This document shows, piece after piece, positions 2,913 to 11,193 of a stretch of DNA of 64,000 nt (position 1 is its first letter; every line of letters starts with the position of its first letter). The translations under genes were made by a program, and so were the position numbers. The notes below the pieces were generated by a model. The model saw nothing but the letters and a program-made list of their open reading frames with translations, was not told where the DNA came from and did no database searches. This DNA comes from Stigmatella erecta. GTDB taxonomy: Bacteria > Myxococcota > Myxococcia > Myxococcales > Myxococcaceae. Location of the stretch: assembly GCF_900111745.1 (NCBI RefSeq), contig NZ_FOIJ01000006.1:186001-250000 (forward strand). The letters are read 5' to 3'.

Positions 2913-5126
2913 TCAGTCCACGAGCAGCCGCTTCACGGGGGCAGGATCCACGTTGATCATCAGCGGCCGCTTGAAGGAGCTGAACGAGGCGATGGCTTGG
3001 CCGGGGGCAAGCCGGGGGACGCGGTTCCAGAGGCTCTCGTCGATGCCGCCCATGGACTTCTGCATCCGGGAGATGACGGTGCTGTCGCTCATCTTGTGGA
3101 TGATGAAGTTGTTGAGCAGACCGAGCACCTCGTTGGGCAGGTGCTGGGGCAACTGGGTGACGAAGACGAGCCCCAGCCAACGCTTGCGGCCGCGCTTGGC
3201 GATGCGGGCCACCTGCTCGAAGAGCACCGGCATCTGAGCGATGCGGCTGGCCGAGAGGAACTCGTGGGCCTCCTCGATGATGATGAGCGCCGGATCGACA
3301 GGGCGGTTCTGCTCCTGGGCCCGCTGGTAGCGCTCCTCTTGCCGCTCCTGGAGCCCCCGGAGGATCTCCGCGATGACGAGGTTGTTGATCTGGGGAGAGT
3401 CCGTGTCCGACAGATCGATCACCGACACCCGCCCCGGGGTCAGCATGGAGTCGTAATCCACCCCCTGAGCGCTCCCCACGTCGAAGATCTTGAGGCGCCG
3501 CAGGCGCAGGAGCCTGCCAAACAAGGCCTTCCAGCTCACCTCGTTCCGGCTGCTCTGCTCATGAACCCGGCTGAGCACCCGGGACGCCTGCTCCTTGAAC
3601 TCACTGTAGAGCTGAGGGCCTTGGGAGGGCGCCACCTCGGGGACCGGCTCCTCGATGCCTTCCACGGGCAGTTGGGCTTGCCGGGAGCTTCCCCTGGCTT
3701 TGGCCTTGCTCTCCGCCCTGCCCTCGCTGCCGAGGACATAGATGTATGTGCTCACGACATCCAGGAGATGCTGGAGGGTCATGCGGGGATAGCCCGTGGA
3801 GAGCTCATCGAGCTCCAGCAACTGCCGCTGCTCGTCGGGAGTCTTCGGGAAGATCTTGAAGTCCTCCAACAACAGCTTGGTGACCTCGTAGGCCTTGTGG
3901 AAGCGCTCCTGCTGCGCGTCCGTCATCTCGAGAATCTCCGCGATGGCATGCGGGGAGAGGTTCGAGAAGTTCAACGCGAAAGCATGCCGGTGCTTGTGAC
4001 GGCGGTTGCGGGTGTCACGGCCGGTCAGGTGATGGATGTGCAGGTCCTTCACCCCCTCGGGCCGCTGCTTCCTGCGCGCGAGGGCCGCGAGCATCGTCGG
4101 CGCGTCGGTGGCCTGGTCCACATGGGTGTATTCACCCTCCACATCGAAGACGATGGTGGCGACCCCCGAAGACTGAGTCCGGTGGATGAGCGTCGCGACG
4201 GTGGTGGACTTGCCCGCGCCGGTGGTGCCGATGATACCCGTGTGGCGGGGCAACACGGACTTGTCCAGGGCATCGATCCGCGCCTCCATGTGCGCGTAGC
4301 CCACGACCATTCCGAAACACAGCTCCCCTTTCATCCCCAGGACGTGCTCGCTCTCCTCGTCATCCAGCAGGAAGACCGGGCTCTTGGGGCGGGGACGGTG
4401 ACCGGGGGGAATCAGCTTGCCGTCGCTCTCCTCCCCGAGGATCTCAAGCTCGGCCCGGCCGTGGTAGTCGAAGGTATAGGAGAGCTTCTTGCCCTGGACG
4501 ACCACCCCCACGGCGATGCTGGAGTTGGCGGCCACGGCATCCGGCTCGGAGAAGGGGCCACGGACGATCACGCCCAGGTAGGAGCGCTTGTCCTCCAGGG
4601 ACTTCACCCGCACGAGCGTCTGTGAGGGCAACTTGTGCAAATCCTCCCGGGTCATCAGCACGGTGATGAGGTTGTCCTCGCTCGACGCGCTGTCGAAATG
4701 GGTGAACCCCACCGCCTTCTCGAGCTCGGGGTCCAATTCCGCCGCGGCCTCATCCGCCTGGGCGCGCAGTTCGGTGAAGGTATCGAGGTCTTCCTCGGAA
4801 AATTGCCGGCGGACCTCGTTGGGGTTGCTGTTCGGCTGCGGCGGCTGCCGGGCCACCGCAGGCGGTGCCGGACGGGGAGGAGGAACGGGCTGCCGGGCAG
4901 GAGGGGGAGGCGCCTGGCGTATTCCAGCGGCCGGAGGGGTGGCCGGGCCGGGTGGCTTGCCCTCCCTCATGGCCCCTGCCGCAGCGGCCGGGCGCGGCGT
5001 TCTTTCAGGCAGGACGCCCCCCTCGGCGGAGTGAGGCACCTGCCGGGGATCCCCGCCCACGGCCCGCGAGGACCTGTGGCCCTGAGTGGCCACCGGGTAC
5101 TTCGGAAAATTGCCATCCGTCGTCAT
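2913..5126 (-). CDS. herA: HerA-type DNA-translocating ATPase (DUF87/HAS-barrel family)
   Basis: 737 residues. A Pro-rich, probably disordered N-terminus (1-110) precedes a HAS-barrel-like region (about 140-230) and a RecA-like ATPase core. Walker A is GTTGAGKST near residue 300, followed by the DVEGEYTHVD strand typical of HerA. Walker B is LIIIEEAH near 610, with a nearby FVTQLP sensor segment and a C-terminal strand ending in MINVDP. HerA forms hexameric DNA pumps that work with NurA nucleases in archaeal end resection and with Sir2, DUF4297 or NurA partners in bacterial defence. Start: ATG with GGGAG about 9 nt upstream. It lies 3 nt after the NurA-like gene, as expected for a physical partner. 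The long N-terminal tail is unusual. Confidence 0.9.
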   Translation of the reverse strand: MTTDGNFPKYPVATQGHRSSRAVGGDPRQVPHSAEGGVLPERTPRPAAAAGAMREGKPPGPATPPAAGIRQAPPPPARQPVPPPRPAPPAVARQPPQPNSNPNEVRRQFSEEDLDTFTELRAQADEAAAELDPELEKAVGFTHFDSASSEDNLITVLMTREDLHKLPSQTLVRVKSLEDKRSYLGVIVRGPFSEPDAVAANSSIAVGVVVQGKKLSYTFDYHGRAELEILGEESDGKLIPPGHRPRPKSPVFLLDDEESEHVLGMKGELCFGMVVGYAHMEARIDALDKSVLPRHTGIIGTTGAGKSTTVATLIHRTQSSGVATIVFDVEGEYTHVDQATDAPTMLAALARRKQRPEGVKDLHIHHLTGRDTRNRRHKHRHAFALNFSNLSPHAIAEILEMTDAQQERFHKAYEVTKLLLEDFKIFPKTPDEQRQLLELDELSTGYPRMTLQHLLDVVSTYIYVLGSEGRAESKAKARGSSRQAQLPVEGIEEPVPEVAPSQGPQLYSEFKEQASRVLSRVHEQSSRNEVSWKALFGRLLRLRRLKIFDVGSAQGVDYDSMLTPGRVSVIDLSDTDSPQINNLVIAEILRGLQERQEERYQRAQEQNRPVDPALIIIEEAHEFLSASRIAQMPVLFEQVARIAKRGRKRWLGLVFVTQLPQHLPNEVLGLLNNFIIHKMSDSTVISRMQKSMGGIDESLWNRVPRLAPGQAIASFSSFKRPLMINVDPAPVKRLLVD

Positions 5127-5129
5127 GTT

Positions 5130-6320
5130 TTACCGCTCCCGCTGCCGCCCGTGGCGCTCGTTGAGGTACTGGTACTTGCCCCCCGCGCGTGTGTAGGCGT
5201 CCTGGACAAGCCCCTGGAAGGAGTCCGTGCCGAACACGCCCCGGCACGAGGAATCCGCGACATCGAGCAGCATGGGAAAGCCCCGCCTGGGGTGGATGAG
5301 GCTGTCGGCCATCACGATGTGGGCCGCGACGTGCACATGCTCGCGGTGCGCGAAGAAGAGGGAGGGGGGCGCGTTCGCGGAGGACCGGAAGAGGCCAATG
5401 AGGATGTCCCGGCAATAGCTCCTCACGAAATCGAGGACCTCGCTCCGGATCTCCTCGCTGGGATAGCTCCACCGCTCGACGAAGTAGGCGCTGTCGGACT
5501 CCAGCGTCTGGATGATGGCGTATTCCCCTGCCTGGAGCGCGTGTCCGAGCGTCAGGTAGCCCCGCTCCTCCATGGCATGAGGAACGAAGACGAACTTCTT
5601 GTGCTCCCCAATGAGCCTGCGCAGCATCTTGAGCGAGGCCTTCAGCAGCCGGGGATAGCCAGAGCCCGAGAGCAGCTCCCGGGAGCAGGGGTTTCCCTGG
5701 CCGACGCGCCACTCCGCCTGGGCCTTGTCCAAGAGGATGGCCCGCTCGGCGTAATCCCGCAGTCCCCGGCGCGCCAGCATGGACAGGTTGTCGCGGCGCC
5801 CCATGCCGGAGCGCTCATGACGCTCTTTCATGCACTCCATGGCCGCCCGGACCGGATCCTCGTCCCCCGTGGACAGCTCCTTGCGGAAAAGACGCTGGGA
5901 GAACGTGCCGGACGTCCCCCCATAGCCCACGACGGCCACCCCCAGCTGGGTGATTCCCAGGGGCAAGCTGTCATGCGAGGCCACGATGCTGGTCACGGCC
6001 TCGACCCGTCCCGGGAACAACAACGCCTCGAAGACCGTCCGCAGCCGTTCCTCGCTGGCCGGGTAGACCCCCGCCACGTCGAGCTTCGTGTGCTCCTTGA
6101 GCTTACGAAGGATCCCCGTGCGGACCGTCGCCTGGATGGTCTCCTCGGCGGCCGCCGAACCGGAGACCTGGGCCTGGATGTCGGCAATCAGTTTTTCAAT
6201 GTCGAGCCCGACCGACCAGGTGTCGAGATCGAGCGTGGATTCCAAATCCTCATTGAAGCCCGACCGGTAATCATCGTCTCCGATGAAGCGCCCCTGCCCC
6301 GCTGTGCCACCACGCGCCAT
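5130..6320 (-). CDS. NurA-like nuclease candidate, HerA partner
   Basis: 396 residues, 2 nt after the protease gene and 3 nt before herA. The link to NurA rests on position and on weak similarity. Residues 111-135 contain an acidic 'SHDS' (Asp117) followed by an 'LGVAVVGYGG' strand, like the NurA first metal-binding motif and its strand. The C-terminus has 'RRGFPMLLDVADSS', placed like the NurA segment with the second acidic/His motif. NurA is a 5'-3' nuclease regulated by HerA. An alternative is a non-catalytic HerA adaptor. No signal peptide or membrane segment is visible. Confidence 0.5.
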   Translation of the reverse strand: MARGGTAGQGRFIGDDDYRSGFNEDLESTLDLDTWSVGLDIEKLIADIQAQVSGSAAAEETIQATVRTGILRKLKEHTKLDVAGVYPASEERLRTVFEALLFPGRVEAVTSIVASHDSLPLGITQLGVAVVGYGGTSGTFSQRLFRKELSTGDEDPVRAAMECMKERHERSGMGRRDNLSMLARRGLRDYAERAILLDKAQAEWRVGQGNPCSRELLSGSGYPRLLKASLKMLRRLIGEHKKFVFVPHAMEERGYLTLGHALQAGEYAIIQTLESDSAYFVERWSYPSEEIRSEVLDFVRSYCRDILIGLFRSSANAPPSLFFAHREHVHVAAHIVMADSLIHPRRGFPMLLDVADSSCRGVFGTDSFQGLVQDAYTRAGGKYQYLNERHGRQRER

Positions 6321-6322
6321 GC

Positions 6323-7057
6323 TCAGTCACGCTCCTCATCATGAGGTACACACGTCAGGAAGGGCCGCCGGGAAGGCTGCTCCAACAACAGCCACCGCGC
6401 ATAGGTCCGCGCTTCCTTCGCCGGCAGTCCAAAGCGGGAGATCAGGCTGGCCTCCAGCGCCTCCTTCCCCCCGTGACTGAGCAGCGGGAGGAGCTCCTGC
6501 CGGGGCGCCAACAATTCGAAGGCGAGCCGGTCCGCGCGCTGCTCCGACTCCATCACCTGCCCCGTGCGGGGTTTTCCCTCGCCGTTGCGGTCCATGAAGT
6601 TGGCGGGGACGCTGTAGGGAATGCGCTCGAACACAGAGAAGAACTGTTCAGAGACGGAGGGCGCCTTGTCACCGTCCAGCACCGGGCGGAGGCTCTCCCC
6701 CCACGCCCTCTCCGCCCGCAGCCGGGGTTGAAGATGGTCGAGGACGAAGTGGGCCACCTCGTGCGCCAACGTGAAACGCTGCTCGTCGGCCGGGTCCGTG
6801 CTGTTCAGGAAGAGCACGGCCACCCCGGATTGGGCCACCGTGAACCCATGCTTGAGACCATTCGTCCCCACGAGCTTCCCGAACTTGCACTCGTGCGACA
6901 CCAGCCACTCCAGCCCCTTCCGGGCGGTGAGGCTCGGCAGGGGCACCACGGTGATCGGCAACGCCAGAGGAATGTCCTCCGCCAGGTCCCTGGGAAAGAC
7001 GGTGGAGGCAGGCAGGCCGCAATCCTTCACGGCTTCTTGCAGCCAGCCCTCACTCAT
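6323..7057 (-). CDS. ImmA/IrrE-family zinc metallopeptidase
   Basis: 244 residues. The zinc motif HEVAH is at 99-103 inside 'FTLAHEVAHFVLDH'. The following 'ESEQRADRLAFELLAP' stretch matches the family's third-ligand helix and FA-x-LL-P signature. Family members (ImmA of ICEBs1, IrrE of Deinococcus) cleave XRE-type repressors after DNA damage or phage cues. Its start overlaps the stop of the upstream HTH gene by 4 nt (ATGA), so the HTH protein is the obvious candidate substrate or partner. It could release expression of the downstream HerA/NurA-like/synthetase genes. Confidence 0.88.
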   Translation of the reverse strand: MSEGWLQEAVKDCGLPASTVFPRDLAEDIPLALPITVVPLPSLTARKGLEWLVSHECKFGKLVGTNGLKHGFTVAQSGVAVLFLNSTDPADEQRFTLAHEVAHFVLDHLQPRLRAERAWGESLRPVLDGDKAPSVSEQFFSVFERIPYSVPANFMDRNGEGKPRTGQVMESEQRADRLAFELLAPRQELLPLLSHGGKEALEASLISRFGLPAKEARTYARWLLLEQPSRRPFLTCVPHDEERD

Positions 7058-7431
7058 GTGTCCGTCCCGTCATCCTGGGAGTGGTCTCGCGCCGCCAGCA
7101 GATAGGAGTCATCACGCACGGAGGTCCGTCCATTCCCGGCCGAGGGGAGCCTGTCCAATACCTCGACCCGCCTGAGCACCGCCGCGAGCCGGCGCGGATC
7201 CACGGAGAAACGCTCCCCGATCATACGCAAATGTTCGGCGAAGCGCTCCTGCCCGGGACGGCGGCACAGGCAGAGTTCATCGAGCACCGTCAGGGAGCAG
7301 CCCAGCATCGCGGCAAGCTCCTCGGCGGATTTGCCCTCGTGCTTGCGGTATTGCGCGAAGATGTAGGCAAGCGACGCGGGGTCCTCCGCGCTGCGTTCAG
7401 CCGCGGCCTTGAGCCAATCAGGCGCCGTCAT
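7054..7431 (-). CDS. Small HTH-like (XRE-type) protein paired with the ImmA/IrrE peptidase
   Basis: 125 residues. An N-terminal helical segment is followed by 'KSAEELAAMLGCSLTVLDEL' (about 34-53), which has the spacing of an HTH with a turn at Gly-Cys-Ser. The match to known XRE domains is loose: the first half resembles a small antitoxin-like HTH and the last 50 residues look flexible. It overlaps the sigma factor gene by 14 nt and the protease gene by 4 nt, so the three should be translated together. Likely role (inference): repressor or anti-sigma-like partner removed by the peptidase. Confidence 0.6.
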   Translation of the reverse strand: MTAPDWLKAAAERSAEDPASLAYIFAQYRKHEGKSAEELAAMLGCSLTVLDELCLCRRPGQERFAEHLRMIGERFSVDPRRLAAVLRRVEVLDRLPSAGNGRTSVRDDSYLLAARDHSQDDGTDT

Positions 7432-8026
7432 CTGAGTCCTCCTTTCCGAAGAAACGTTCCAACAGCTTCATGAGGCGATCCCGGTGCCGCTTCACCTCTA
7501 ACTGGCGGTCTTCCTTGGACATCGGGGGCAACCGCAAGGCCTTCGCCAGCTCCTCGGTCGAGCTCTCCCCCGTCAGCACCAGCCGGAGCAGGGCCTGGTC
7601 CTGCTCACTCAGAACCTTCCCCTTCTCCAGCAATTCCAAGATTTGACGCACCCGCGCAGAGGTTTCCATCCTCTCCATGGGATCGTTCGGAGTCCTCAGC
7701 AGGAGTTCGACATCGCCCTGTTTTTTTTCTCGCCGGGCCCCCGCCTCGACGGAGCGCCACCGGTCCGCCGCCTTATGTTTGGCCACCCCCATGATGTAGG
7801 TGAAAGGGTGAACCTTCCGGGGGTCATAGCGCTCTGGCTGTTTGCGGTAAGCCAGGACCGCCTCGAGGGCGGCATCGCGGGCGACATCGATGTCGTAGCC
7901 AAGCCCCTCCAGCTTCTTCGCGAGCCGCTCCATGTACATCGGGAAAACGTCGTAATAGGCCAGCGGATCGCCCTCCAGCAGCCGCTGGTGCAAGACCATT
8001 TCTGCTTCCGGTGATGGATTGCGCAT
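7418..8026 (-). CDS. ECF-like RNA polymerase sigma factor, first gene of the HerA operon
   Basis: 202 residues from the ATG at 8026, chosen because GAGGAGGAGG ends 4 nt upstream; the longer frame up to 8071 lacks such a site. A sigma-2-like region (about 10-90, with 'HPFTYIMGVAKHKAADRWR') is followed by a sigma-4-like region (about 130-190, 'LSEQDQALLRLVLTGESSTEELAKAL'). The sigma-4 helix spacing is looser than in standard ECF factors, so this may be a diverged group. A sigma factor heading a HerA module suggests the operon controls its own expression. The 250 bp upstream contain the third G/C palindrome. Confidence 0.72.
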   Translation of the reverse strand: MRNPSPEAEMVLHQRLLEGDPLAYYDVFPMYMERLAKKLEGLGYDIDVARDAALEAVLAYRKQPERYDPRKVHPFTYIMGVAKHKAADRWRSVEAGARREKKQGDVELLLRTPNDPMERMETSARVRQILELLEKGKVLSEQDQALLRLVLTGESSTEELAKALRLPPMSKEDRQLEVKRHRDRLMKLLERFFGKEDSDDGA

Positions 8027-8168
8027 CCCCTCCTCCTCGCCAGGACGTGGCCGCTCATGCATCCGATGCATCTCACCCGGTTCTTCGATGCAGCGCCGTG
8101 GAGTTCGACAAGCGCATGGCGCGTGACATGACGCTCAAGGTTGGCTCAGCTCGCCCTCTGTTTCCTCT

Positions 8169-8181
8169 CCCCCTTTGGGGG
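8169..8181. repeat. CCCCC/GGGGG palindrome upstream of the sigma factor gene
   Basis: Five C, TTT, five G, about 143 bp upstream of the sigma factor start and 97 bp upstream of the divergent acyltransferase gene. It is the third copy of the motif at 508-524 and 2889-2907. On the plus strand a TTGACA-like hexamer (8184-8189) follows directly, but I see no good -10 element. It could be an operator serving the divergent pair. Confidence 0.5.
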
Positions 8182-8277
8182 TATTGACAACCGCACGCCC
8201 TCCCATCCAGCCGGATCAAAGCGAGGGCCGCGGCGAACTCGGGCTTCTGGCCACGAACCTTTTCCTGAAGGCACGGC

Positions 8278-9108
8278 ATGACGCCGGGCCATCCCGAGGG
8301 GTTCATGACGACATTGCGCTGCCACATCGCCACCACCCAGCAGCAGCTCGACGATGCACTGCGCGTGCGCTGGGAGGTCTTCGGCAAGGAGCTGGAGCTG
8401 CTCGAGCGCACGGCCCACGCCGTGCCCCGGGAGAACAATGGCTTCGACACCCTGGCGACCACCGCCCACGTCCTCGTCTACGCGGATGACGTGCCCGTGG
8501 CCACCGCCCGCCTGTTGCTGCCCAACCCCGAGGTGGCCCGCGCCACGGGGAGCCGGCTGGGCATCGATCTGGAGACCAAGGTGGACCTGTCAGAGCTGGG
8601 AGGCCCGGGCCTGGTGTTCGCCGAGACCACCCGCTTCTGCATCCTCAAGGACTGGCGCCACTCCGCGGTCCTCATGTGGCTGTACGCCGGGCTCCATCAG
8701 GAGAGCCGCCGCCGGGGGGTGACGCACTGGATCGCCTCCGCGAACACGGAGACGGACTCGGCCGAGGACGCGCACATCCTCTTCCAGGTGGCCGCCTACC
8801 AAGGTCTGCTCAGCAGCCGGTGGCGCGCGCGGACGCTCGCCTGCCCCAGGTCCCCGGAGGCGCCGGCCGCGCCCTTCTATACTCCCGAGCAGAGAGCACA
8901 CGCCCGGCAGGGGCGGTTCGACGGCTTGGGCCTTCCCCCCGTGTTGTCCCTTTTCTCCGGCAAGTTGGGCGCGCGGTTCATCGCTGGACCCCTCTACGAC
9001 GCGCGTTTCCGCCGCTTCTCCCTTCCGCTCGTCTCGGCGCTCCAGGATGTTCCCGCCAGCACGCAGAAGTTCTTCGACAAGATGACCGCCCGCGCCTCAC
9101 GCGGTTGA
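8278..9108 (+). CDS. LuxI/FeeM-fold N-acyltransferase
   Basis: 276 residues. The pattern follows the autoinducer-synthase fold: R31-W32-E33-V34-F35 near the N-terminus, acidic residues in 'ENNGFDTLATT' (52-62), an Arg in 'VATARLL' (about 78), and 'ETTRF' at 116-120, corresponding to the E-x-x-R of LuxI-type enzymes. FeeM-type members make long-chain N-acyl amino acids from acyl-ACP; LuxI makes acyl-homoserine lactones. The substrate cannot be decided from sequence. Start: ATG 8278 has GAAGG 6 nt upstream; ATG 8305 (GAGGGG 3 nt upstream) is the alternative. The oxidase gene follows 89 nt downstream. Confidence 0.75.
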   Translation: MTPGHPEGFMTTLRCHIATTQQQLDDALRVRWEVFGKELELLERTAHAVPRENNGFDTLATTAHVLVYADDVPVATARLLLPNPEVARATGSRLGIDLETKVDLSELGGPGLVFAETTRFCILKDWRHSAVLMWLYAGLHQESRRRGVTHWIASANTETDSAEDAHILFQVAAYQGLLSSRWRARTLACPRSPEAPAAPFYTPEQRAHARQGRFDGLGLPPVLSLFSGKLGARFIAGPLYDARFRRFSLPLVSALQDVPASTQKFFDKMTARASRG

Positions 9109-9197
9109 ACCGCGCCGCTCGCGCCCGAGTCCCCCTTCCCACCCACTTCCCCTTCACACCCACGGTCCCCCTCCCGGGGCCCGAACAGGAGACGTCC

Positions 9198-9908
9198 ATG
9201 AACCCTCACACCGAATCCCCCTCCACGATGAACTGGATCACCACCCTGGAGCACGAGGCACGCACGCTGCTTGGGGAGCTGGACGCGCACCCCGAGGCGC
9301 GGCGGCTCTTCGACGGCAGCATCGACAAGGACCGCTACGTCCACTACCTCATCCAGACGTACCACTACGCGCGCTGGACCACGCCCCTCCTGGCCGAGGC
9401 GGGCCGGCGCATGAAGCGCCTGGGCCTGCACCCCCGGCTGGGGGAGCTGCTCCTGCAAAAGGCCGCCGAGGAGCACGGGCATGAGCGCTGGCTGCTGGCG
9501 GACCTGAAGAACCTGGGCTGGCCAGCCGAGCGTGTCGAGCGGCAGACGCCCACCCCCGCGGTCGCCGCCTATGTCGCCTGGAACCGCTTCACCTCGCGCT
9601 GCGGCCGGCCCGAGGCGTTCCTGGGCACGGCCTATGTGCTGGAGTACCTGTCCGTGCACCGCGCCAGCCAGTCCGTGAAGCGGATGCTCGCGGCCAACAC
9701 CATTCCCAACATCCGCAAGGCCGTCACCTTCCTGAAGGCGCACGGCACCGCGGATGAGGGGCACGTGGAGGAGCTGACGTCGCTGCTGAGTCCCCTGACG
9801 GACCGGGAGGAGCAGGCCGCGCTGCTGCTGTCCGCACGCACCACCCGTGTTCTCTACCTGGGCCTCTTCACGGAGGGGGACCTCAAGAACGCGGCGCACC
9901 CCTCCTGA
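9198..9908 (+). CDS. Heme-oxygenase-like iron-dependent oxidase (HDO/TenA fold)
   Basis: 237 residues, all-helical. The acidic/His ligand pattern of iron-containing redox enzymes is visible: 'EEHGHERW' at 91-98 and 'DEGHVEEL' at 186-193, with 'YVLEYLSVH' between. The family includes diiron N-oxygenases and fatty-acid decarboxylases such as UndA. Position directly after the acyltransferase suggests it oxidises the acyl product or its precursor (inference). Start: ATG after CAGGAGACGTCC. It ends about 100 nt before a convergent LuxR-type gene, with a large inverted repeat between them. Confidence 0.7.
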   Translation: MNPHTESPSTMNWITTLEHEARTLLGELDAHPEARRLFDGSIDKDRYVHYLIQTYHYARWTTPLLAEAGRRMKRLGLHPRLGELLLQKAAEEHGHERWLLADLKNLGWPAERVERQTPTPAVAAYVAWNRFTSRCGRPEAFLGTAYVLEYLSVHRASQSVKRMLAANTIPNIRKAVTFLKAHGTADEGHVEELTSLLSPLTDREEQAALLLSARTTRVLYLGLFTEGDLKNAAHPS

Positions 9909-9942
9909 GGAGCACAGACCTCCGTCATTCGCCGTCCCCACC

Positions 9943-9995
9943 GCGCCAGAGGGCGCCGGGGCGGGTCCTTCCGCGCGAAGGGCCCGCTCTGGCGC
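9943..9995. terminator. Inverted repeat between convergent genes, likely bidirectional terminator
   Basis: Outer arms GCGCCAGAG (9943-9951) and CTCTGGCGC (9987-9995) are perfectly complementary and enclose a second GC-rich hairpin built on CCTTC/GAAGG. It sits between the oxidase stop and the stop of the convergent regulator. Only short A/T runs flank it. Confidence 0.55.
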
Positions 9996-10004
9996 CGAAA
10001 GGGC

Positions 10005-11054
10005 TCAAGCGTTCTTGGCCAGAGCGATGAGTTCAGCCCGGCTCGACACACCCAATCTCCTGAAGGCCGCGTGGACGTGGTCCTTCGCCGTATCATTGGT
10101 GATCCGGAGCTTGTCGGCGATCTGCTTATCCGTCAGCCCTTGCACGACCAGGACCGCCGCCTCGAACTGTCTGGGCGTCAGTATCTGCCGCCACTTTTCT
10201 GGCACCAGATGGACCTCCTTCAGCCGTAACTCCCACAGGTCACGGCCATCGATGCGCGGCAGCCGGGTGAAGCACACCTCCAGGGCGCTCATCTCCCCCT
10301 TCTCCCGCCACGCGTGAGGGGTGGAATCGAGGGCCGCCATGGACGTGGCCAGCCGATCGCTCCAGGCCCAAGGGATTCCCTGCGCATCCCGATCAGAGCG
10401 GAAGGGGAACCATGTCTCCAGCAAGGACGTGACGGCCCCCGTCCGGAAGATTTCCTGCCGCCGGGCATCCCACACGATGGCATTGGCCCCCTCCTGGCGA
10501 AGCATCTCCTCCAGCAGTTGGCTGTGAGAGAACAGCGCGCCGAATCGCGCGATGTTCTGGAACGCCCCCGACAGGACGGGGGTGAGACTTTGCAACAAGC
10601 GCCGGTTCTCCGCGGAGAAAGGTCTGACGCGCTCGCTGTACAGCGCGATCGCACCGCCGCTCATCTGGCCCCCGGGGGCCAGCAAGACCGCGAGGACATG
10701 TCTCAAGTTCAGGTGCGACTCCCGGCTGCGCCGGTGCGTCTCTGTCTCCACGAGCTTCTGGCCCCGAAGCATCTCCGTATCGCTCCAAGCGGTGTTGGGG
10801 CGCTGCGAGAGCCAGCGAAAGACGAAGTCCTCCTGGTACCACTGGTAATAGCTCTGAAGGAAATGTCCCGTCGTGCTCGCTTTCCAATCGAACCCCGTGG
10901 GTAATTCCGGATTCATCCGGCAAAACGCCACATGGTCCGCTTGAAAGAGCTTCGACAGAAGCGACTCCGTGCGCTCCTGCAACTGCGCGAGGCTCTGGGA
11001 TTCGAGCAGCCCGCACGTCAAGTCGAGAAACGTCCGCTGCGGCAACCGGCTCAT
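10005..11054 (-). CDS. LuxR-type transcriptional regulator with GAF-like sensor domain
   Basis: 349 residues from the ATG at 11054; a TTG at 11126 would add 24 residues. Residues about 10-180 look like a GAF-type or divergent autoinducer-binding sensor domain ('SLAQLQERTESLLSKLFQAD', a YYQWYQEDFVF region). The C-terminus (about 285-345) is a LuxR/FixJ HTH: 'LTPRQFEAAVLVVQGLTDKQ' followed by 'TAKDHVHAAFRRLGV'. It converges on the LuxI-fold acyltransferase and oxidase genes, so it is a candidate receiver or controller of their product. The sensor is not an obvious LuxR acyl-homoserine-lactone domain, so ligand binding is a guess. Confidence 0.8.
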   Translation of the reverse strand: MSRLPQRTFLDLTCGLLESQSLAQLQERTESLLSKLFQADHVAFCRMNPELPTGFDWKASTTGHFLQSYYQWYQEDFVFRWLSQRPNTAWSDTEMLRGQKLVETETHRRSRESHLNLRHVLAVLLAPGGQMSGGAIALYSERVRPFSAENRRLLQSLTPVLSGAFQNIARFGALFSHSQLLEEMLRQEGANAIVWDARRQEIFRTGAVTSLLETWFPFRSDRDAQGIPWAWSDRLATSMAALDSTPHAWREKGEMSALEVCFTRLPRIDGRDLWELRLKEVHLVPEKWRQILTPRQFEAAVLVVQGLTDKQIADKLRITNDTAKDHVHAAFRRLGVSSRAELIALAKNA

Positions 11055-11193
11055 GGCCACGGTTTCTCCATCGCCCGAGGCGTGAGACCCCCATGTCTCG
11101 CCTGGCCTTCCGAGGATACCGCGCAAGGCTTCAGAGGTGGAAGACCCCGGGCCTCGTGATCGATCCGGACGGGAATGTATGGTTAGACACGAA

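Follow-up and report, generated by a model that had tools for sequence, protein, structure and literature searches.

The closest described relatives of the locus reported here are the LuxI/LuxR pairs of acyl-homoserine lactone (AHL) signalling and the acyltransferase FeeM. The locus lies in a 64-kb stretch of the Stigmatella erecta genome, positions 186,001 to 250,000 of contig NZ_FOIJ01000006.1 (contig C6 of a 9.2 Mb genome), and the whole of this stretch is called the window. Three genes make up the locus: an acyltransferase gene (8305-9108, + strand, alternative start 8278) of the FeeM/LuxI structural group of GNATs, predicted to make a signal or another N-acyl product; a gene for a heme-oxygenase-like oxidase of 236 amino acids (9198-9908, +); and, convergent on both, a gene for a LuxR-type helix-turn-helix (HTH) regulator with a GAF-like N-terminal sensor (10005-11054, −), whose start may extend to a TTG at 11126. 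This trio had been picked out in an initial annotation, and all three genes were confirmed at sequence level.

The trio resembles LuxI/LuxR in the GNAT fold, in most residues of the catalytic motif, in the adjacent LuxR-HTH regulator and in a palindrome at LuxR-family promoters, and differs in having neither a PF00765 nor an Autoind_bind match, in its partner iron oxidase and in the 26-bp length of the palindrome. FeeM is the best structural match to the acyltransferase and a weak profile match; in contrast to FeeM, the window acyltransferase has a longer C-terminal part, a regular partner oxidase and regulator, and a clade of its own. The initial annotation had held that myxobacteria are not known for classic AHL signalling. 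This must be corrected, since AgpI of Archangium gephyra and VitI of Vitiosangium are described, in the available part of one report, as functional AHL synthases of the LuxI type, with no receptor in the genome that carries AgpI and none adjoining VitI (PMC7862692). Like the acyltransferase they are LuxI-fold synthases of related myxobacteria; unlike it they are, by the same partial text, rare and without an adjacent receptor. PF00765 members above cut-off were found in 2 of the 96 genomes surveyed here, the window genome not being one of them. According to the available part of a 2026 preprint, a complete LuxR/LuxI system is undocumented in any myxobacterium (PMC12919014). The oxidase shares its fold and the full set of six ligand residues with UndA, CADD, BesC and PolF (for the last two, the accessible text of PMC12614342), and differs from these oxidases in being structurally nearest to 3DDE, an uncharacterised protein of Shewanella. 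A search of the literature on this trio, or on quorum-linked defence in myxobacteria, in a library that lacks most subscription journals, found nothing among the papers listed.

New relative to the initial annotation are a palindromic candidate operator, a divergent five-gene operon and a link to defence genes. Taken with the conservation of the trio, they allow it to be read tentatively as a small-molecule, non-AHL signalling cassette of the LuxI/LuxR kind that feeds a defence regulon, a reading which is plausible and falls a little short of probable.

Conservation of the three-gene cassette

The survey covered 96 genomes of the bacterial family, and the acyltransferase was present in 61. Oxidase matches were found in 64 genomes, 61 of which are exactly the acyltransferase genomes, and the other three (G004, G010 and G083) have weak, distant matches only; conversely, the 35 genomes that lack the acyltransferase comprise 32 with no oxidase match and the three with weak distant ones. 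From 110 listed acyltransferase matches 103 were analysed, seven short fragments and the weak oxidase matches being left out. The oxidase gene is downstream of 87 of these 103, with the convergent luxR gene as well in at least 68. At least one adjacent acyltransferase-oxidase pair occurs in 59 of the 61 genomes and at least one intact trio in at least 51, and the doubt voiced in the initial annotation, that the three genes might not be neighbours elsewhere, thereby falls away. A second set of 49 loci, comprising the window, 42 named-contig loci and 6 fetched regions, with one locus counted twice (L109 = L118), gave 43 acyltransferase-oxidase pairs, 38 of them with the convergent luxR gene. The protein distance matrices of 37 unique trios were correlated (Spearman 0.91, 0.76 and 0.82), and none of 2000 permutations reached values as high. 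The trio also occurs in Polyangium, and in Sorangium, where one gene separates luxR from the oxidase; M. xanthus carries it as well (L125). G038, and G036 in one of its copies, have a lone acyltransferase gene with oxidase and luxR elsewhere. Overall, the trio is a conserved, co-inherited cassette.

Fragmentary remnants of the acyltransferase gene were observed at G072:C1:6349329, G069:C1:6421110, G056:C816, G076:C8 and G078:C324, some of them beside the five-gene operon; the genomes concerned keep another copy elsewhere, which suggests repeated decay of one copy. After the trio, for example in Corallococcus (L128, L137), genes named by eye as non-ribosomal peptide synthetase (NRPS)-like and hydrolase-like stand in 11 and 10 of 43 loci, respectively.

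The acyltransferase, the oxidase and the regulator

The acyltransferase open reading frame (ORF) spans 8278-9108 on the + strand, and the start at 8305, giving 267 amino acids, is favoured because the relatives in the alignment fit it. Acetyltransf_5 was matched above cut-off (E-value 7e-8), the only match to this family in the window genome, and FeeM (PF21926) just under cut-off (E-value 1e-5, 25.5 bits against 27), which some relatives exceed, such as G019:C314 with 36.3 bits. R22, D48, R69, E107 and R110 are invariant among 21 sequences and F26 is present in at least 90%, and hhalign placed the motif residues on the catalytic pattern of two true LuxI proteins of the same bacterial family (probability 87%), so that the N-terminal arginine and the E-x-x-R motif noted in the initial annotation stand. 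LuxI proteins have nine conserved residues: R24, F28, W34, E43, D45, D48, R68, E97 and R100. Equivalents of seven of these occur in the window acyltransferase (R22, F26, E43, D48, R69, E107 and R110), E43 not being kept in all relatives; by alignment and hhalign, equivalents of W34 and D45 are absent from it. Canonical AHL synthase identity was rejected, as PF00765 gave no match to the window protein up to an E-value of 1 and none in the window genome at 0.001.

An AlphaFold2 model was built from the 21 sequences, the best of five having a predicted local distance difference test score (pLDDT) of 89 and the others 61-88. It is predicted to have the FeeM fold, its top structure being FeeM itself (PDB 2G0B; Z 16.7, root-mean-square deviation 2.8, 172 of 184 residues, 12% identity), followed by a generic GNAT (Z 15.3), RpaI (14.8), BjaI (14.6), TofI and LasI (13.8), with AHL synthases interspersed among other GNATs. 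In the phylogeny, which had been proposed as a check against LuxI and FeeM, a maximum-likelihood tree of 39 rows united the family in a single clade (support 100/99), with the rows of FeeM, LuxI and Ols falling elsewhere; this tree, from which row L236 with 19 residues was left out, has unresolved deep branches and several long rows.

Membership of a PEP-CTERM or ornithine-lipid family would have argued against a small-molecule product. The PEP-CTERM acyltransferase (TIGR03694) was rejected at 32.2 bits against an NCBIfam cut-off of 111.95, which no protein passed in the 195 genomes searched in the phylum, and OlsB (NF052554) at 27.2 against 350 bits and by its separate clade. By profile cut-offs the acyltransferase is not PEP-CTERM, OlsB or LuxI. 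That it makes an ornithine-lipid-like membrane aminolipid, which the oxidase would hydroxylate, is very improbable: membership of Acetyltransf_5, the distant OlsB similarity of 27.2 bits and a C-terminal 'GP-YD--F' region that we take to be OlsB-like point that way, but proteins from the same bacterial family that resemble OlsB and OlsF reach 202.5 bits (the best OlsB-like relative scored) and 366.8 bits, still short of the respective cut-offs of 350 and 620, and fall in another clade, and no lipid O-acyltransferase was found among ten window genes scanned.

The initial annotation had placed an iron oxidase after the acyltransferase, and this is borne out by the gene at 9198-9908, which matched Haem_oxygenas_2 (PF14518) with an E-value of 1.5e-17. 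Six residues aligned to UndA, namely E92, H95, E149, H182, D186 and H189, are invariant among 26 sequences and are presumably the diiron ligands. The model (pLDDT 90) is nearest to Shewanella 3DDE (Z 22.7), then to TenA (20.6), CADD (20.5) and heme oxygenase, and the class of oxidase is therefore not fixed by the fold alone. With fold, PF14518 profile and E/H/E/H/D/H ligand set all present, the protein is predicted to be a heme-oxygenase-like oxidase of the diiron type. Combined with such an oxidase, an autoinducer-synthase fold points to new signal chemistry.

For the regulator, the claim of a LuxR-type protein held, with a GerE HTH domain (E-value 3e-11) in a gene convergent on the other two, while the GAF-like sensor region was matched weakly and under cut-off (E-value 0.004). 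Among 31 family members GerE was found in all and GAF_2, at E-values up to 1, in 15; PF03472 was not among the matches listed for them (the best 25 of 32 families). Identity as an AHL receptor was rejected for want of a PF03472 match. A likeness of sensor residues W57, Y69 and D76 to AHL-pocket residues was also dropped, hhalign against three domain proteins being collinear and not significant.

At L107 (G063:C1:7546348) an unlinked LuxR protein 68% identical to the window regulator was observed, possibly an eavesdropping solo; no acyltransferase or oxidase gene was found within the 6.5 kb fetched around it. Strong AHL-receptor domains (PF03472, E-values 1e-32 and 5e-32) occur in L264 and L265 (G057:C6 and G058:C1, genus g19) and a LuxI protein (PF00765, E-value 2e-30) in L224 (G036:C2); the literature reports few LuxI/LuxR-receptor genes in myxobacteria.

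A palindromic candidate operator

Inspection of upstream rows first suggested a 26-bp palindrome, GTC-N2-TACCHC-N4-GDGGTA-N2-GAC, as a candidate operator. The lux box is 20 bp long, and the palindrome is unlike it. When upstream regions were scored against a consensus, 32 of 38 luxR regions reached at least 13 of 18 (11 of 190 shuffles) and 26 at least 14 (1 of 190), and for the acyltransferase 13 of 43 regions reached at least 13 (8 of 215 shuffles) and seven at least 15 (0 of 215); in coding controls the counts were 0 and 1 of 43, and the regions scored include the locus counted twice (L109 = L118). An earlier candidate upstream motif of the acyltransferase, CCCC-N3/4-GGGG, was rejected, being found in 2 of 43 regions against 1.6 expected; it was in these same rows that the longer palindrome was noticed.

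Because the scoring consensus had been chosen post hoc, the palindrome was tested over whole genomes. The pattern GTCNNTACCHCNNNNGDGGTANNGAC at up to 1 mismatch was found at 66 places in 42 of the 96 genomes, all 42 among the 61 with the acyltransferase, and in none of the 35 without it; the reversed pattern gave 5 places in 5 genomes. Most of the places fall into a few contexts: 28 of the 66 precede the five-gene operon (19 of them the operon only, 9 the acyltransferase as well), 18 precede LuxR-family genes, whether linked or unlinked, and 6 lie immediately 3′ of the acyltransferase or oxidase gene, with 14 at other places. The palindromes at LuxR-family promoters suggest autoregulation.

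The operon lies back to back with the trio in the window (2913-8071) and is read from the − strand. Its first gene (7418-8071) encodes a sigma-70-like protein (NCBIfam sigma70-ECF, E-value 5e-8, under cut-off), and is followed by those for a small HTH protein in the position of CapH (7054-7431; HTH_31/HTH_3 weak and under cut-off, E-values 0.007-0.015), a CapP-like M78 (ImmA/IrrE-like) peptidase (6323-7057; PF06114, E-value 2.6e-12; PADLOC capP, E-value 1e-8 over a short stretch), a 396-amino-acid protein (5130-6320) and a HerA/DUF87 ATPase (2913-5126; PF01935, E-value 5e-22; PADLOC HerA, E-value 9e-30). The 396-amino-acid protein served as the marker of the operon; it had no match in Pfam, NCBIfam, PADLOC or PHROGs and none credible in the PDB. 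It was found in 56 of the 96 genomes, all within the 61 acyltransferase genomes, and 42 of its 61 matches, in 42 genomes, are within 10 kb of the acyltransferase gene and divergent from it without exception (42/42). The operon is a candidate anti-phage or stress operon, its role in defence being a guess from the HerA and CapP-like matches.

At eight loci where the operon stands away from the acyltransferase gene, the site precedes the sigma-like gene by 91-375 bp, and in five unlinked operon promoters two conserved islands were seen within diverged flanks. In G077 the operon is about 3 Mb from the acyltransferase gene, and its promoter holds the only palindrome match of that genome. The window itself has a degenerate copy at 8163-8188, with 3 mismatches and a perfect right half, at a distance of 92 bp from the start of the sigma-like gene and of 117 bp from the ATG of the acyltransferase. 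It is the sole match at up to 3 mismatches in the 64 kb (mean of shuffles 0.07), and its spacing to the sigma-like gene is similar (91-93 bp) in L315, L318 and L319. Upstream of an unlinked LuxR gene of the window genome (C6:54445-55491), at 77 bp, lies a copy whose core is intact and which has four mismatches in all. The upstream alignment of luxR promoters from the window clade showed no clear common palindrome.

Two of the 3′ sites are followed by a small gene resembling DUF3892, the profile match being to its relative in L100. In L119, L120 and L341 a DUF3892-like gene that carries a palindrome copy of its own, with 1 to 2 mismatches, was observed 3′ of the oxidase gene. A DUF6119 gene lies 60 bp past the 3′ site in G058, and in L120 a gene similar by eye is next after the DUF3892-like gene.

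Defence genes at the palindrome

Nine of the 14 palindromes at other places adjoin a PADLOC defence gene that is read away from the site. Four are cas3 genes of type I-C (G057, G058, G061 and G064; E-values 3.3e-193 or better), and the others encode JukA (G005), PD-Lambda-1 (G037 and G058), a ZorD-like helicase (G068) and Vsr (G055). Repeat arrays of at least 51 and at least 25 copies lie by the marked cas3 loci of G061 and G058, with other cas genes identified by eye. The remaining five palindromes are found at genes for an Rrf2 regulator, a lipoxygenase, a DUF4258 protein and a 171-amino-acid protein, and in one case without a recognisable gene. Among ten other genes neighbouring sites, used as a control, nothing as strong was found, with one generic MotB-type match (E-value 3e-12). 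G057/G058 and G061/G064 look like pairs of related species, and the nine cases are therefore not independent.

Quorum-sensing control of immune genes, namely of CRISPR and the cyclic-oligonucleotide-based anti-phage signalling system (CBASS), is known in other bacteria, Serratia among them. It is also described for CRISPR and CBASS in Pseudomonas and Vibrio in the available part of a further source (PMC12988980). These cases, as far as that text goes, share with the present one density-linked regulators acting on immune genes, and differ in that general circuits are involved, whereas in the present case a single palindrome is found both at LuxR genes and at several defence systems unrelated to one another.

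Candidate binders of the palindrome and weighing of the alternatives

In the signalling reading preferred here, the acyltransferase would, judging from fold and motifs, work like FeeM and attach a fatty-acyl group to an amine, probably that of an amino acid, and the diiron-type oxidase would oxidise this putative product or its precursor to give a non-AHL signal; the oxidised N-acyl amino acid put forward in the initial annotation would be a candidate product. The convergent LuxR-HTH protein would sense its presumed ligand through the GAF-like domain and would bind the 26-bp palindrome, whose places at LuxR-family promoters, at the HerA operon promoter and at anti-phage genes in relatives would make up a defence regulon. 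Overall, a population would adjust its collective immunity to cell density or to a released alarm molecule. In its fullest form this amounts to a dedicated non-AHL quorum or alarm channel in core myxobacteria, M. xanthus included, in which synthase and oxidase make an oxidised N-acyl signal, a GAF-type LuxR protein reads it and the operator, with a sign of regulation assumed to be positive, switches on an anti-phage regulon (a HerA/CapP-like operon, putatively defensive, in most species, and CRISPR I-C, Juk, PD-Lambda-1 and a Zorya-like gene where present). That version is possible and must be regarded with real doubt. If true, no complete synthase-receptor pair would have been described from a myxobacterium before it, and its main known targets would be immune systems. 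For the question of how these social predators sense density chemically, the trio is a testable candidate in many species; since the palindrome ties it to anti-phage systems, social control of immunity would become directly testable in a multicellular bacterium.

The LuxR protein is the more likely binder, as predicted from the sites and the protein families, when compared with the HTH/M78 pair of the operon. NarL-type sites consist of inverted heptamer pairs with a spacing of 2. The core of the palindrome resembles inverted heptamers of this type (TACYYMT in the available text of PMC4886647), and such sites are expected for a GerE/NarL HTH domain. Alternatively, the small HTH protein of the operon would bind the palindrome and the M78 peptidase would cut this repressor on DNA damage or phage attack, in the manner of CapH and CapP, giving a damage-responsive defence regulon with LuxR genes among its targets and a trio product that is separate. 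The HTH gene and the CapP-like peptidase gene near the head of an ATPase-bearing operon are alike in the two systems, with weak profile matches in the window, and CapH and CapP are described in the accessible part of one source as controlling neighbouring immune operons after binding of single-stranded DNA (PMC13373217). The operon is present in 42 of 42 palindrome genomes, and where the acyltransferase occurs without the operon the palindrome was found in 0 of 5 genomes (hypergeometric p 0.002, kinship ignored), and 19 palindromes are at the operon only. Unlike the sites of CapH and CapP, as far as they are described in that source, copies of the palindrome are dispersed genome-wide, LuxR promoters included; the 18 sites upstream of LuxR-family genes, unlinked ones included, are typical of autoregulation, and the core is partly like GerE/NarL-type heptamers whereas the operon HTH protein matches HTH models weakly (E-value 0.007). 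Control by the operon pair is rather unlikely, without being negligible.

Several observations count against the signalling reading with LuxR as binder. The five genomes with acyltransferase and no operon (G002, G039, G042, G073 and G079) have no palindrome at 1 mismatch, and nine loci from them, which for G002 and G079 are unlinked LuxR genes only, have no match at 3 mismatches; this fits an operon-encoded binder as well as or better than LuxR. Of 53 distinct sites only 7 are strict NarL 7-2-7 pairs, and 29 contain one half or both. The luxR promoter of the window has no palindrome, the window site itself has 3 mismatches, and the window genome (G000) has no match at 1 mismatch. On the sensing side, Autoind_bind (PF03472) gave no match to the window regulator up to an E-value of 1, and hhalign of its sensor against true AHL receptors reached a probability of only 10%. 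On the synthase side, the family profile of the acyltransferase retrieves generic GNAT structures (1Q2Y, SACOL1063) and not FeeM or LuxI; 19 of the 28 operon sites lie farther than 400 bp from the acyltransferase gene and no site stands at that gene alone, so that support for control of the synthase is weak. As for the counts, the genomes are related, so that those of palindromes and genes are not independent, and the scoring consensus was picked after the sites had been viewed, which makes its counts partly circular; the whole-genome test is cleaner, yet its consensus comes from the same clade. The control for the defence genes consisted of ten neighbour genes only, four of them beside LuxR-gene sites. 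At three of the nine defence genes (G057 cas3, G068 and G055) the longest ORF includes the site near its 5′ end, its true start probably being later than the site, and at G058:C26, G058:C2 and G061 a divergent gene opposite the site is a possible target.

The trio could also be an ordinary specialised-metabolite cassette, making an oxidised N-acyl amine that acts as antibiotic, surfactant or effector under a pathway-specific LuxR protein, with the defence link running through other LuxR-family members. An acyltransferase with a heme-oxygenase-like diiron oxidase is a biosynthetic pairing, 11 of 43 loci have a gene after the trio that is NRPS-like by eye, no palindrome stands at the acyltransferase alone, and a second pair of a LuxI/FeeM-like GNAT and such an oxidase, with DUF3419 and Asp-hydroxylase genes, was found in three related genomes. 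This is improbable all the same: the trio is present in most core-genus genomes and tightly co-inherited, which is unusual for a niche metabolite, and, the trio and the five-gene operon apart, each neighbour is found in at most 11 of the 43 loci.

The second pair was observed in L221, L222 and L223 (G017:C94, G022:C10 and G019:C301) of genus g6, inferred to be Corallococcus, and the pairing of a LuxI/FeeM-like fold with an oxidase of this kind is therefore not unique. The GNAT is LuxI/FeeM-like and distant, and the heme-oxygenase-like oxidase has an overlapping start in L222 and L223. Downstream are a DUF3419 gene, an Asp/Asn-hydroxylase-like gene and another GNAT gene, an arrangement resembling an uncharacterised biosynthetic cluster.

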